Assembly: GCF_006542375.1 (NCBI RefSeq)
Contig: NZ_CP038143.1
Span: 124,001-188,000, forward strand
Source: Oecophyllibacter saccharovorans
GTDB taxonomy: Bacteria > Pseudomonadota > Alphaproteobacteria > Acetobacterales > Acetobacteraceae
Direction of reading: 5' to 3'
Length of the DNA stretch: 64,000 bases
Of this stretch, positions 57,760-63,239 are shown piece by piece (position 1 is the first letter of the stretch; each line of letters starts with the position of its first letter). A program made the position numbers and the translations under genes. The notes beneath the pieces were generated by a model, which worked only from the letters and a program-made list of their open reading frames with translations, ran no database searches and was not told the origin of the DNA.

Positions 57760-59403
57760 ATGCGTCCCCTGTCTCGCCTTCTCTTCTCCAGTGCCCTCAC
57801 TCTTTGCGCTGTTCCGGCTTTTGCAATGCCGGTAGCCAACAACTCAGGCGAAACAGCGCGTCCGCAACCGGATAGCGTAACAACCACCGGCACCCTGAAG
57901 GTCAACGGCAAGGCTATCGCCTATCATGCTGTTGCAGGAACCCTGTTGGTGCATGGGCGCAAATATGATGATTCCCGTGTCGTCCTGAAACAACGCGGGG
58001 ATCTCAGCGCCACGAGCGGTCCACAACAGAACGCGCCCGGAAAAGCTTCAAAAGACGGCAAGGAAAACGGGCCAATCGCTTCCATGTTCTACACCGCTTA
58101 TTTCCGTGACAACGCCAACACCAGAACACGCCCGCTTGTCTTTCTCTACAACGGCGGTCCCGGTTCTGCCTCTGTATGGCTGCAGATGGGCTCCTTCGGC
58201 CCATGGCGGGTTTCCACCCCGGGTGTGGAGCACCAGCCGCCGCCACCTTATGCACTCATAGCCAATCCCCAGTCCCTCCTGGACGTGGCTGACCTGGTCT
58301 TCATTGATGCACCCGGAACAGGGTATTCCCGCATCGGTGGCAAGAAAGCGGAAAAAGAGTTCTACGGCATTGACGGCGATGCGGCCGCCTTCACCCATTT
58401 CATCATGGCTTTTCTGGCCAAATATCACCGCTTTGAATCGCCCCGTTATCTGTTCGGCGAAAGTTACGGCACATTGCGCTCAGCCCTGGTGGCCAACGAG
58501 CTTGAACAGGAGGAAGGGATCGACCTCAACGGCGTGATCCTGCTCTCGCAGATTCTCAGCTACGACAACAATGCGGACACCCCGCAATTCAATCCCGGCA
58601 ATGACGAGCCTTATGTGCTGTCACTTCCGACCTATGCAGCCACCGCCTGGTACCACCATCGCCTGCCCCAACACCCTGACCAGCTCGCCCCTTTCCTGCG
58701 GGAAGTGGAGCAGTTCGCCAGCACGGACTATCTGCTTGCGCTGCAGGAAGGAAGCCTGCTGCCGGAGGCGCGCAAACGTGCCATCGCCGAGCGCCTGCAC
58801 CGCTATACAGGCCTTCCTGCCGCGTACCTGCTGCGCGCCAATCTGCGCGTCAATGGCGGCATGTTCACTCATCAGCTTGAAGCGGCTGAAGACACGACCA
58901 CAGGCCGGCTGGATACCCGCTTTGCCGGCCCCAGTCTGGATCCGATGTCCAAGGAAGCGGAATATGACCCCCAGTCAAGTGCTCTAAGCTCCGCTTACCT
59001 GTCCAGCTTCAATGCCTACGTGCGCAATACCCTGCATTATGGAGGGGAAGTGCCTTACCGGGTCTTCGCACCAGGCGCCAATGAACACTGGGACACCCAC
59101 CACTCCGTTCCCCTTCCCGGAGGGGAGGACGCCAGCATCACCCCCAATGTGATGCCTGATCTTGCGATGGCGATGAAAACCAATCCCACTCTCAAGATCA
59201 TGCTCAACAGCGGCCTTTTCGATCTGGCCACGCCCTATTATCAGGCGCAGCATGAACTGCACCATCTGCCCATTCCTGACAGGCTGCAGGCCAATATCAG
59301 CACCTACCAGTATCCGACAGGTCACATGGTGTATGTGGATGCCAAATCCCTGCAGGCCCTCCATGACAACGTTGCCGCCTTTATTGCCGCCACTACGCAC
59401 TGA
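57760..59403 (+). CDS. Secreted serine carboxypeptidase (peptidase S10)
   Basis: A 547-residue alpha/beta-hydrolase protease that removes C-terminal residues at acidic pH. A Sec signal peptide (LLFSSALTLCAVPAFA) is present. YNGGPGSASVWLQMGSFGP forms the oxyanion region. The nucleophile is Ser235 (FGESYGT), and the acid and histidine are in GLFDLATP and PTGHMVYVD near the C-terminus. FIDAPGTGYSRI is also typical. TAGGAG lies directly upstream of the start. S10 enzymes are mainly eukaryotic but occur in acid-tolerant bacteria, including acetic acid bacteria, where a periplasmic acid-active peptidase fits the habitat. Confidence 0.9.
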   Translation: MRPLSRLLFSSALTLCAVPAFAMPVANNSGETARPQPDSVTTTGTLKVNGKAIAYHAVAGTLLVHGRKYDDSRVVLKQRGDLSATSGPQQNAPGKASKDGKENGPIASMFYTAYFRDNANTRTRPLVFLYNGGPGSASVWLQMGSFGPWRVSTPGVEHQPPPPYALIANPQSLLDVADLVFIDAPGTGYSRIGGKKAEKEFYGIDGDAAAFTHFIMAFLAKYHRFESPRYLFGESYGTLRSALVANELEQEEGIDLNGVILLSQILSYDNNADTPQFNPGNDEPYVLSLPTYAATAWYHHRLPQHPDQLAPFLREVEQFASTDYLLALQEGSLLPEARKRAIAERLHRYTGLPAAYLLRANLRVNGGMFTHQLEAAEDTTTGRLDTRFAGPSLDPMSKEAEYDPQSSALSSAYLSSFNAYVRNTLHYGGEVPYRVFAPGANEHWDTHHSVPLPGGEDASITPNVMPDLAMAMKTNPTLKIMLNSGLFDLATPYYQAQHELHHLPIPDRLQANISTYQYPTGHMVYVDAKSLQALHDNVAAFIAATTH

Positions 59404-59440: not shown

Positions 59441-60790
59441 TCAAAGCCGGTCGATTTCCTGCAATCCCTGACGCAGGGTCCGCCCGGGCAGAAAGGAGGC
59501 CAGCCAGATTTTCGGCGTTTCGACACGTTGGGAAAGGTAAATACCGGTTGGCCCGGAAACGAGATAGGCGATGAAGCAGCCCGTTGCATAATAAACCAGA
59601 TTGGCCCCCCCGAAGAGTTCGACCGCCATGATCGTACAGGCCAGGGGCGTATTGGCCGCACCGGCAAAAACGGCGACAAAGCCAATGCCGGCCAGCAGAT
59701 CGACCGGCACCCCAAGCCAGGGCGCCAACGCATTCCCCAACCCGGACCCGATGAAGAAAAGCGGCGTCACTTCACCGCCCTTGAAGCCGGTCGTCAGGGC
59801 CACCAGCGTGAAGACCAGCTTCAGAAACCAGCTCCATGGATAATGCTGGGGGCCGAAAAAATCGACAATGGAAGCGCCGCCAGGATTAGGGGATATAACG
59901 CCGAGCCCCAGATAATCCGGCGAGCCGACCAACCAGACGAGCGCAATAGTGGCTGTGCCCCCCAGGGCCGGCCTCAGCCAGGGTACAGGGCACACCCTGC
60001 TTACCAATACCGTCCCGTGACGCAGCCCTTCTGAAAACGCCCAGCTTGCCAATCCAAAAGCAACGGAAGCCAGGGCAATCTTGGCCAGCAGCCAGAGATC
60101 TGCCTGGAAGAGGGCATTGCCGGCCAGCATGGCTGCGCCATAACCCATGTGATAGGCGGTATGATGAACATGCAGCCAGCTCTCCCACTGACGACAGGTC
60201 CAGTCGGCGAGGATGGATGCGAAAGCGCCCGGCAGGAGGGCTGTATAAGTCAGCCGTCCTAGGGTCAGCACTTCCAGACCGAATACTGCGCCTGCCACAG
60301 GTGTGCCGAACACCGCGCCGAAGCCAGCCGATATACCGGAAATCAGCATGATACGGGTCTGGCGATTATCGAGCCGGAACAGGCGCGCAAAGCCGCTGGC
60401 CAGACTGCCCCCCATCTGGATGGCCGTCCCTTCCCGCCCTACGGAAGCGCCGAACAGATGACTGACGACTGTAGCCAGAAATACCATGGGCGCCATACGC
60501 AGAGGCACACCGACCGTGGGAGATTCGATCTCTTCAAGAATGAGGTTGTTGCCGCTCGCGGCACGCCCGCCCCACCAGAAGTAGAGCAAGGCCATCGCCA
60601 CCCCTGCCAGGGGCAGACCGTAAAGCAGCCAGGGATGGGCAAATCGCGTCAGCGTCGCCACTTTAAGCGCCCATAGAAACAGGGCACACACCGTCCCCAC
60701 CACCAGTGCGAGCGGCGTCAGCAATATACCCCAGCGGATGAGCGATTTCAGGAAAGGCAGGGGATGGGGGGTAATAAGGGTTTTAAGCAC
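59441..60790 (-). CDS. CLC-family anion transporter, probable fluoride/proton antiporter (CLC-F)
   Basis: Polytopic membrane protein of 449 residues from the GTG at 60790, which has GGAAGGA six bases upstream; a TTG at 60835 would add 15 residues. CLC hallmarks are SVGREGTAIQMGGSLASG with the gating glutamate and GFKGGEVTPLFFIGSGLG. The usual chloride motif GSGIP is replaced by GNNLI, and the gating motif is GREGT rather than GREGP. From memory these changes mark the CLC-F fluoride exporters. The upstream fluoride riboswitch strongly supports this. It converges on the S10 gene. Confidence 0.85.
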   Translation of the reverse strand: MLKTLITPHPLPFLKSLIRWGILLTPLALVVGTVCALFLWALKVATLTRFAHPWLLYGLPLAGVAMALLYFWWGGRAASGNNLILEEIESPTVGVPLRMAPMVFLATVVSHLFGASVGREGTAIQMGGSLASGFARLFRLDNRQTRIMLISGISAGFGAVFGTPVAGAVFGLEVLTLGRLTYTALLPGAFASILADWTCRQWESWLHVHHTAYHMGYGAAMLAGNALFQADLWLLAKIALASVAFGLASWAFSEGLRHGTVLVSRVCPVPWLRPALGGTATIALVWLVGSPDYLGLGVISPNPGGASIVDFFGPQHYPWSWFLKLVFTLVALTTGFKGGEVTPLFFIGSGLGNALAPWLGVPVDLLAGIGFVAVFAGAANTPLACTIMAVELFGGANLVYYATGCFIAYLVSGPTGIYLSQRVETPKIWLASFLPGRTLRQGLQEIDRL

Positions 60791-60836
60791 GCAGATTCCT
60801 TCCAACGACCTGAGCGAATAGACGCACCGGAACAAA

Positions 60837-60940
60837 GGCAGGAATCATCAGCCATCACTCTCGTTTTCTTCCTCTCCACTGGGGAGATTAAAACGAAAGG
60901 GGCAGTTCAGCCCGAAGGCTCGGCGGAAATCCATCGCCGT
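60837..60940 (-). promoter_or_regulatory. Fluoride riboswitch (crcB motif) controlling the CLC gene
   Basis: On the minus strand the conserved aptamer blocks appear in order: GGCGATGG (60938-60931), its partner CGCC (60925-60922), a TTCG-capped hairpin (60920-60909), AACTGCC (60907-60901), a long variable stem with CGTTTT pairing AAAACG, then GGCTGATGATTCCTGC (60853-60838). The GGATT loop can form the pseudoknot with ATTCC, with one U-U mismatch. GATTCCT (60846-60840) is also perfectly complementary to AGGAATC (60800-60794), which overlaps the CLC ribosome binding site. The remaining gap to fusA holds only the hairpin at 61073-61106. Confidence 0.85.
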
Positions 60941-61072
60941 CGGATAAATTATCTACTGCCGTGCCGCCGCAGGATCAAGAGCGATCTGCAAGGAACTGAA
61001 AATACCGTCGAACAGGCCCCAACAGAGGCGCTGCAATCCGACACTGACCGGCTTTCCCGAAAACCGCAGGAA

Positions 61073-61106
61073 GGGACGCGCGTTTCCTGCATGAAACGCG
61101 CGTCCC
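61073..61106 (-). terminator. 14-bp perfect hairpin downstream of fusA
   Basis: GGGACGCGCGTTTC (61073-61086) pairs with GAAACGCGCGTCCC (61093-61106) around a six-base loop, about 43 bases after the fusA stop. A smaller hairpin, GTGCCC with GGGCAC (61109-61128), lies just before it. There is no continuous U-tract, only scattered T residues. It separates fusA from the riboswitch. Confidence 0.6.
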
Positions 61107-61148
61107 AAGTGCCCTTGCCTTCGGGCACGGTGCCCCGAGTCTGCCTGC

Positions 61149-63239
61149 TCAGGCCCGGCGTTCGGCCATGATCTCTTCAGCCACATTGCGCGGCACCGGC
61201 TCATAGTGATGGAACTGCATCGTGAACGAGGCACGTCCCTTGGTGGCTGAGCGCAGATGGGAAATGTAGCCGAACATCTCCTTCAGCGGCACCTGAGCCC
61301 GGATCAGAACCGTAGAGCCGGCTGTTTCCTGATTCTGGATGATGCCACGACGGCGGTTGAGGTCACCCACCACGTCACCGACGTGATCGTTCGGCGTGGT
61401 GATTTCAACATCCATGATCGGCTCGAGAATAACAGGGCCGGCCTGTTTCATACCCTCGCGGAAACAGGCCTTGGCAGCGATTTCAAAGGCCAGCGCCGAG
61501 GAGTCGACATCATGGTATTTGCCGTCCAGCAGCGTGAACTTGAAGTCCACGGTTTCGAAGCCGGCCAGCACGCCCGTGGTCGCCTGGTTACGGATGCCCT
61601 TCTCAACAGCCGGAATATATTCTTTCGGCACCGCGCCGCCGACAACGCTGTTTTCGAAGATGATCTCGTCCTTCTTTTCCGAAGGTTCGAACTTGATCTT
61701 CACCTCAGCGAACTGACCGGAACCACCCGACTGTTTCTTGTGGGTATAGGTCTCGATATGCGGCTTAGTAATGGTCTCACGATACGCCACCTGTGGTGCG
61801 CCGATATTGGCTTCCACCCCGTATTCACGACGCAGGCGGTCGACAATGATGTCGAGATGAAGCTCACCCATGCCGGAAAGAATGGTCTGACCGGTTTCCT
61901 GATCAGTGCGCAGCTGCAGGGAAGGATCTTCCGCAGTCAGCTTCTGCAGAGCCAGGGTCATTTTCTCAACCGCTTCCTTGGTCTTCGGCTCAACGGAGAT
62001 GTCGATCACCGGCACCGGAAACTGCATGCGTTCCAGAACGACAGGATCGCTGGGATCAGCCAGGGTATCGCCTGTGCCTGTATCTTTCAGACCCACGAAA
62101 GCAGCGATATCGCCGGCATAAACCGTTTTGACTTCCTGGCGCTTGTCAGCATGCATCTGGAACATACGCCCGACGCGTTCCTTGATGCCCTTGGTGGTGT
62201 TCAGAACGGTGTCGCCCGTGCTGAGCTGGCCGCGATAGACACGCACGAAGGTCAGGGTGCCGTATTTGTCGGAAATGATCTTGAAAGCCAGACCGGCAAA
62301 CTTGCCTTCCGGATCCACCGGCACGATCGGCAGGAAGCTCTCATCCACTTCCTCGTCTTCCGGCGGGGCAATGCGGATGCCTTCGACCTCGTCAGGGGCC
62401 GGCAGGTAGTCGATCACCGCATCGAGAAGCGGCTGGACACCCTTGTTCTTGAAGGCCGTGCCACACAGCACCGGACGGAACTCACCGGAAATGGTGCCCT
62501 TCTTGATGCAGCGCTTCAGCGTCTCTTTGCTGACGTCACCCTTCTCGAAATACTCTTCCATCGCTGCTTCATCAACGGCCAGAGCGGTATCAAGCAGCTC
62601 CTGGCGTGCTTCAGCAGCTTTTTCCTTCAGATCGTCAGGGATGTCCTCGTAGTGGAACTTAGCCCCGAGCTCACCGCCTTCCCAGACGATAGCGCGCATT
62701 TCGATCAGATCGACAACGCCGATGAAGTTTTCTTCAGCACCGATCGGCAGCTGCAGGGGCAGGGCCACGATGTCCAGCTTTTCCTTCAGCGTTCCGAAAG
62801 CATGCCAGAAGTCAGCGCCTGTACGGTCGAGCTTGTTGATGAAGATGATACGCGGAACGTTGTAGCGATCGGCCAGACGCCAGTTCGTTTCCGACTGGGG
62901 CTGAACACCGGCCACCCCTTCAATCACGAAGATCGCGCCATCGAGCACACGCAGCGAACGGTTGACCTCGATGTTGAAGTCGATATGGCCCGGCGTGTCG
63001 ATGATGTTGATCCGGTTGCCTTCCCACTCGCATGTCACGGCAGCTGAGGTGATGGTGATGCCGCGTTCACGCTCCTGAGCCATGTAATCTGTCGTGGTAT
63101 TGCCTTCATGCACTTCACCGATCCGGTGGGACATGCCGGTATAGTACAGAATGCGCTCGGTGGTGGTGGTCTTGCCGGCATCAATGTGGGCGGTAATGCC
63201 GATATTGCGGATTTTAGAAAGTTCTGCGTGCTCGGACAC
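61149..63239 (-). CDS. fusA: Elongation factor G
   Basis: Translocation GTPase of 696 residues. G1 is [17 protein letters not shown], the switch II region is [14 protein letters not shown] and G4 is [10 protein letters not shown]. Domain IV contains [15 protein letters not shown] and the C-terminal [19 protein letters not shown] segment. The start is GTG with GGAG seven bases upstream. It is not next to rpsL, rpsG or tuf, so it stands outside the usual str operon. That is common in some alphaproteobacteria or may mean a second EF-G; it cannot be settled here. Confidence 0.97.

Follow-up and report, generated by a model that had tools for sequence, protein, structure and literature searches.

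Fluoride riboswitches of the crcB motif (Rfam family RF01734) have been linked to the control of both transcription and translation, and a translational fluoride riboswitch is, as a mechanism class, already known or presumed. In the text cited here, Weinberg et al. 2010 (PMC2864571) predicted that the ligand keeps overlapping terminators from forming, so that expression rises. In the portions of PMC11077080 drawn on here, a six-pair pseudoknot exchanges strands with the terminator and forms even without fluoride; switching can weaken or fail when the pseudoknot is made stronger, and the authors cite pseudoknot mutations able to break function. According to the cited part of PMC13273304, 1901 leaders were characterised for termination, with members from Burkholderia pseudomallei and Pseudomonas syringae serving as translational controls, and translation control is presumed for some fluoride riboswitches in PMC8814607. 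The excerpts of PMC9495176 and PMC7266159 hold general statements only.

Two described systems involve the same motif in Zymomonas and Gluconobacter. In Zymomonas mobilis the 5' UTR of ZMO0547, which like the locus reported here precedes a CLC gene, holds a crcB motif predicted with Rfam; the cited section of PMC5770649 lists it as 'Conserved with Gluconobacter' and contains no analysis of its expression platform or pseudoknot. RNA-seq of Gluconobacter oxydans, as given in the cited section of PMC5756330, shows similar coverage of the predicted crcB fluoride riboswitch and of its gene, unlike the four riboswitches that are read there as terminating. We count this even coverage over riboswitch and crcB in favor of a translational reading.

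We identified a fluoride riboswitch aptamer before a CLC gene in the window, by which we mean the whole 64,000-nucleotide stretch of Oecophyllibacter saccharovorans DNA that was analysed. The features, in the order in which they are read on the minus strand, are as follows.

60832-60947, minus strand: fluoride riboswitch aptamer (RF01734), from cmscan.
60922-60938, minus strand: P1 hairpin, GGCG (60938-60935) with CGCC (60925-60922), from the Rfam alignment.
60938-60931, minus strand: conserved crcB-motif block GGCGATGG.
60934-60926, minus strand: P1 loop of 9 nt, ATGGATTTC, from the Rfam alignment.
60927-60932, minus strand: pseudoknot 5' strand GGATTT in the P1 loop, whose position-4 U faces a U of the 3' strand.
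60925-60922, minus strand: conserved crcB-motif block CGCC.
60909-60920, minus strand: P2 hairpin AGCC-UUCG-GGCU, between P1 and the conserved AACTGCC, from the pattern test.
60907-60901, minus strand: conserved crcB-motif block AACTGCC.
60851-60903, minus strand: P3 with a long extension hairpin (CTTTCGTTTT ... AAAACGAGAG), from the Rfam alignment (46 positions unshown) and the fold.
60853-60838, minus strand: conserved crcB-motif block GGCTGATGATTCCTGC.
60840-60846, minus strand: pseudoknot 3' strand GATTCC plus the next T (GATTCCT), also the anti-Shine-Dalgarno strand; it pairs with the Shine-Dalgarno (SD) site in the minimum-energy fold.
60794-60803, minus strand: ribosome binding region GGAAGGAATC, in which AGGAATC (60800-60794) pairs with GATTCCT.
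60803-60797, minus strand: SD site GGAAGGA, overlapped by AGGAATC.
59441-60790, minus strand: CLC gene of 449 amino acids, a probable fluoride/proton antiporter (PF00654 and phmmer), with the start placed by SD spacing.

The covariance model of RF01734 matches positions 60947-60832 of the minus strand over the full model, 1-64, with 37.2 bits and an E value of 1.1e-6 (cmscan). The score lies above the curated gathering score of 34 bits, and the match is the only one at E<=0.001 across the 1.94-Mb genome. The fluoride aptamer proposed by an earlier, sequence-only reading of this DNA is thus confirmed, and the crcB-motif blocks named in that reading were all located, in order, on the minus strand before the CLC gene. 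The window leader shares with RF01734 the P1 and P3 helices, the conserved AAC and UGAUG blocks, the pseudoknot strand and a probable fluoride exporter gene that follows. We predict that the window aptamer binds fluoride.

The CLC gene begins with a GTG at 60790, 41 nt from the aptamer match and in the same orientation. Its product belongs to PF00654 (E 2.3e-62), and the PDB holds no relatives of it at E<=0.001 other than 6d0j (E 4.7e-54), 6d0k and 6d0n, which represent a CLC-type fluoride/proton antiporter (phmmer, E 4.7e-54 to 4.5e-53). The window protein probably transports fluoride. A CLC protein from an uncultured Acetobacteraceae MAG (L032) is 66% identical to it. The upstream gene on the same strand (63239-61149) is by eye that of elongation factor G, and a 14-bp perfect inverted repeat (61106-61073, minus strand) between this gene and the aptamer perhaps ends the upstream transcript. 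A convergent serine carboxypeptidase-like gene (57760-59403, plus strand; PF00450) lies downstream of the CLC gene. No sigma-70-type promoter directly before the aptamer reached the scan threshold, and the only site found was inside the CLC gene. The early CLC coding sequence contains CCATC (60767-60763, minus strand), which complements GATGG at the P1 loop, and this pairing appears in the predicted centroid and minimum-energy folds.

The segment GATTCCT (60846-60840) is a perfect 7-base complement of AGGAATC (60800-60794), which overlaps GGAAGGA. AGGAATC is present in five copies on both strands of the 64 kb (8.47 expected). This frequency implies that a same-strand copy within about 60 nt downstream would arise by chance in about 0.4% of cases, a figure that ignores the purine-richness of SD sequences. 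The best duplex between the 12-nt strand GATTCCTGCCTT and the downstream 80 nt has an energy of -12.6 kcal/mol, which was equalled by 59 of 6000 dinucleotide shuffles (0.0098); smaller runs gave 0.030 (200 shuffles) and 0.004 (500 shuffles). The whole window leader was not found to be exceptionally stable (z -1.33; 20/200 shuffles fold as well).

The sequence-only reading also proposed that the strand switches between the pseudoknot and the SD in a mutually exclusive manner, and suggested folding with and without the pseudoknot as a check. The complementarity stands, its conservation in relatives is described below, and the GATTCCT:AGGAATC helix is present in the unconstrained fold of the 191-nt window leader. 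The other part of the proposal fares less well for the window, where the SD core already has an unpaired fraction of 0.32 and reaches no more than 0.45 once the pseudoknot strands are blocked. By nearest-neighbor energies, a proxy that leaves pseudoknots and fluoride outside the model, the pseudoknot hexamers of the window pair at -1.9 kcal/mol and the hexamer pairs to the SD at -7.4 kcal/mol.

Related leaders were collected from family, class and phylum samples, which overlap and each include the window genome; the genus-level sample is one genome. Fluoride matches were found in 67/200 family genomes, 27/385 class genomes and 67/398 phylum genomes, and CLC proteins in 53/397 family genomes (E<=1e-60) and 4/385 class genomes (1e-70). 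Of the places with matches, 72/129 (family), 22/30 (class) and 55/76 (phylum) were parsed; eight class-sample places below the cut-off (L155-L162) were left out, and L121 and L128 were removed as duplicates. The loci read gave 173 distinct leaders, of which 171 were used in the pseudoknot tables. The two left out are L215 (30.3 bits, unparseable) and L149 (G644, from a different family of the class), which seems to have an irregular pseudoknot, as GGCUAU and GAUACC fit only with a bulged base.

The pseudoknot of the window had been taken as normal, which proved incorrect. GGAUUU and GAUUCC face each other with a U.U mismatch at position 4, leaving four Watson-Crick pairs and one wobble out of six. 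We defined a variant set by this mismatch, which comprises 56 leaders from 54 genomes and 17 genera, the window included. All 56 follow the pattern GGAYUN x GAYUCC and carry a pyrimidine mismatch at position 4 (U.U in 40, C.U in 11, C.C in 5). Position 4 is paired in 115/115 of the other leaders (G-C in 95, A-U in 20) versus 0/56 of the variant leaders, the latter by construction. The variant also differs from typical RF01734 members in a P2-like hairpin that sits after P1 and before the conserved AAC block; the pattern test found it in 56/56 variant leaders versus 12/115 others. By the nearest-neighbor proxy, the hexamer pseudoknot averages -2.25 kcal/mol in the variant and -7.05 kcal/mol in the others, and in 49/56 variant leaders the pairing of the strand to the SD is stronger than that to its pseudoknot partner.

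Most variant leaders (52/56) are linked to a CLC gene. An independent set of CLC leaders, obtained by protein search, contained 52 that are mismatched, one that is paired (G013) and four with no fluoride match in the stretch of upstream sequence that was read (the second copy in G066, G029 twice, and G115). This set of 57 leaders derives from 58 places, as two G135 rows are one broken gene. The riboswitch of G135 (L056) persists upstream of a CLC gene that is broken up by stop codons, with a single TAG in the first piece and a TAG plus two TAA in the second. G066 has tandem CLC genes (contig C1, 187077-189947), and the DNA before the second copy (L130) is without a fluoride match. The remaining 4/56 variant leaders have no CLC gene within 700 nt. 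L060 precedes CrcB, and L064-L066 precede a frame containing MRILAILDRPE; the L064 protein, the only one of these three tested, matches the universal stress protein family, and a CrcB-like frame follows it by eye.

The mismatch is not general to CLC-linked fluoride riboswitches. This idea was rejected on the basis of 11 CLC-linked leaders with a paired position 4: L033 (Planctomyces MAG), L036 (Burkholderiales MAG), G013 (L020, within the family, where the start of the CLC match lies 243 nt past the aptamer) and eight from other classes of the phylum (L180, L187, L189, L195, L199, L205, L207 and L214). L147 and L148, from other families of the class, have both the mismatch and a CLC gene. L033-L048 are 16 CLC relatives that belong to other phyla and classes; 15 of them were scanned, and two, L033 and L036, had a fluoride match. 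We read these leaders as a putative, mostly CLC-linked fluoride riboswitch variant with a weakened pseudoknot. The variant looks undescribed in the literature searched: screening by title and the start of the abstract gave no paper describing direct SD pairing or a mismatched pseudoknot of a fluoride riboswitch, which is a weak negative.

The SD complementarity, which was expected to be kept in orthologues, is conserved in most relatives. At least six of seven core pairs, with G-U allowed, form in 53/56 variant leaders versus 36/56 single shuffles, and all seven form in 32/56 versus 4/56. The pairing of the strand with the downstream region beats 95% of shuffles in 47/56 leaders; the nine that are not above shuffles at 0.05 are L054, L055, L056, L058, L060, L066, L097, L131 and L147. 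In 35/52 CLC leaders an in-frame start lies 2-16 nt downstream of the end of the paired site. In the other 17/52 the nearest in-frame start lies outside this range, including five with an ATG exactly at the site end and 12 without. Blocking the pseudoknot strands raises the median unpaired fraction of the SD from 0.01 to 0.35 across the 56 variant leaders, with an opening of more than 0.05 in 41/56 and not in 15/56.

Covariation between strand and SD, which the sequence-only reading asked to be looked for, was found in an extended 12-nt helix and not in the 7-nt core. In a genus-level swap across 17 genera, in which the tree is not modeled, the 12-nt duplex reached -12.74 with own leaders versus -11.63 with swapped leaders (z about -3), and the permutation p had a median of 0.002 and a largest value of 0.028 (200 draws, one leader per genus). 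For the 7-nt core no covariation between genera was found (own -7.69 versus cross -7.61), because both sides are nearly invariant. Taken together, the core result and the swap effect place the covariation in the helix extension, where CC or CCUC pairs with GG or GAGG, UGUC with GACA, and UACC with GGUA. In the ungapped register, picked for best pairing so that pair counts lean towards pairing, two-sided changes occur at positions 3 (U-A, U-G or C-G), 9 (C-G, U-A or U-G) and 11 (U-A or C-G), and position 8 is unpaired in 43/56, a recurrent 1x1 mismatch in the helix. As several leaders take odd ungapped registers (for example, L051, L052, L060, L095, L099, L102, L114, L127, L131 and L148), the RNAduplex result was used for significance.

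In the wider sample, the 7-nt strands of all 171 leaders gave -7.49 on their own downstream region versus -7.00 when permuted (z -5.3), and the 115 leaders outside the variant gave -7.40 versus -7.07 (z -3.0), both uncorrected for relatedness. In five CLC leaders (L109, L111, L114, L119 and L127) the masked SD precedes an upstream ORF of 20 to 34 codons, the stop of which overlaps the in-frame CLC ATG as ATGA; control may here act through translational coupling. Seven leaders of one genus (L067, L109, L110, L111, L113, L117 and L118) have a GTG and an immediate stop 1 nt past the paired site.

We propose that the window leader is a translational ON fluoride riboswitch, with the SD masked without fluoride and freed with fluoride and with a pseudoknot that lacks its fourth pair, and we assign this reading a probability of about 0.78. 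When fluoride is absent, GAUUCCU and the following CC would pair with the CLC messenger's SD, keeping the ribosome off. When fluoride is present, the aptamer would close, the P1 loop would hold GAUUCC, and the freed SD would allow the fluoride exporter to be made. A variant pseudoknot without the fourth pair would leave the strand preferring the SD unless fluoride holds the aptamer, and the mismatch may thereby set the fluoride threshold. We infer the direction of control, ON with fluoride, which would be that of the translational riboswitches of B. pseudomallei and P. syringae, where fluoride raises expression and, as in the window leader, a terminator is absent. Several leaders from other classes of the phylum appear by eye to work differently: they carry GAUGCC, and a GCCUAC that re-pairs with GUAGGC and not directly with the SD (for example, L180, L195, L205, L207 and similar leaders).

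Control by transcription termination, intrinsic or Rho-dependent, instead of action on the ribosome binding site is improbable. According to the cited part of PMC11077080, the type studied best is a terminator platform in which these six pseudoknot bases change partners, and the riboswitches of Bacillus cereus and Thermotoga petrophila resemble the variant in that the six 3' pseudoknot bases are shared by aptamer and platform. They differ in that the partner is a terminator and the six-bp pseudoknot forms during transcription regardless of fluoride. A terminator in the window leader was rejected, as no U-run follows the helix and a scan of 60650-61250 found a single site, 61025-61005, upstream of the aptamer (0.8 expected from shuffles). 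TTTT occurs within 10 nt after the helix in only 1/56 variant leaders (L054), which makes control most likely translational, and the SD lies under the helix. If Rho ended transcription within an untranslated leader, the sequence would not show it. It is quite improbable, too, that the SD complementarity is incidental, with a strand that resembles an anti-SD for aptamer reasons and regulation that works otherwise. The common strand ACUCCU is anti-SD-like in itself, the core heptamer pairs equally well with leaders of other genera, and strands of other classes do as well or better on GATTCC-class leaders (-7.95 versus -7.60 for the leaders' own strands). The largest strand class, GACTCC (78 leaders), gains no advantage from its own leaders (-7.46 versus -7.44). 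However, the helix reaches past the core with changes on both sides, the 12-nt swap favors own leaders, and GATTCC strands do worse on other-class leaders (-5.53).

A further alternative competes with the mismatch part of our proposal and not with the switch as a whole. We give an even chance to the possibility that the pyrimidine mismatch is one inherited, functionless change, or a contact missed by the six-pair drawing, instead of a tuned weakness. The carriers are Acetobacteraceae leaders and L147 and L148 only, which makes a single origin likely; the U/C changes are transitions; and the P2-like hairpin of all 56 variant leaders could compensate for the mismatch. Against this, three combinations, all avoiding pairing, occur across 17 genera, and every other parsed leader keeps the position-4 pair. 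For our own proposal, the published pseudoknot mutations that can break the switch (cited part of PMC11077080) weigh against a mismatched pseudoknot being fully functional. Returning to the translational switch, we offer a more specific version with considerable doubt: in an alphaproteobacterial, mostly CLC-linked variant with a P2 and a pseudoknot crippled by one pair, the pseudoknot would need bound fluoride to form, in contrast to that of B. cereus, the freed strand would default to the ribosome binding site, and the conserved mismatch, not the ligand pocket, would set affinity and threshold.

The leaders described here provide comparative evidence for the wiring of a fluoride aptamer to translation, in which one strand serves both the aptamer and the anti-SD helix. 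They also form a natural experiment on the tuning of a riboswitch by the strength of its pseudoknot, which was studied earlier, in the portion of PMC11077080 cited, on the terminator-type members of B. cereus and T. petrophila. The variant is easily tested and might serve as a compact fluoride sensor that acts on translation.
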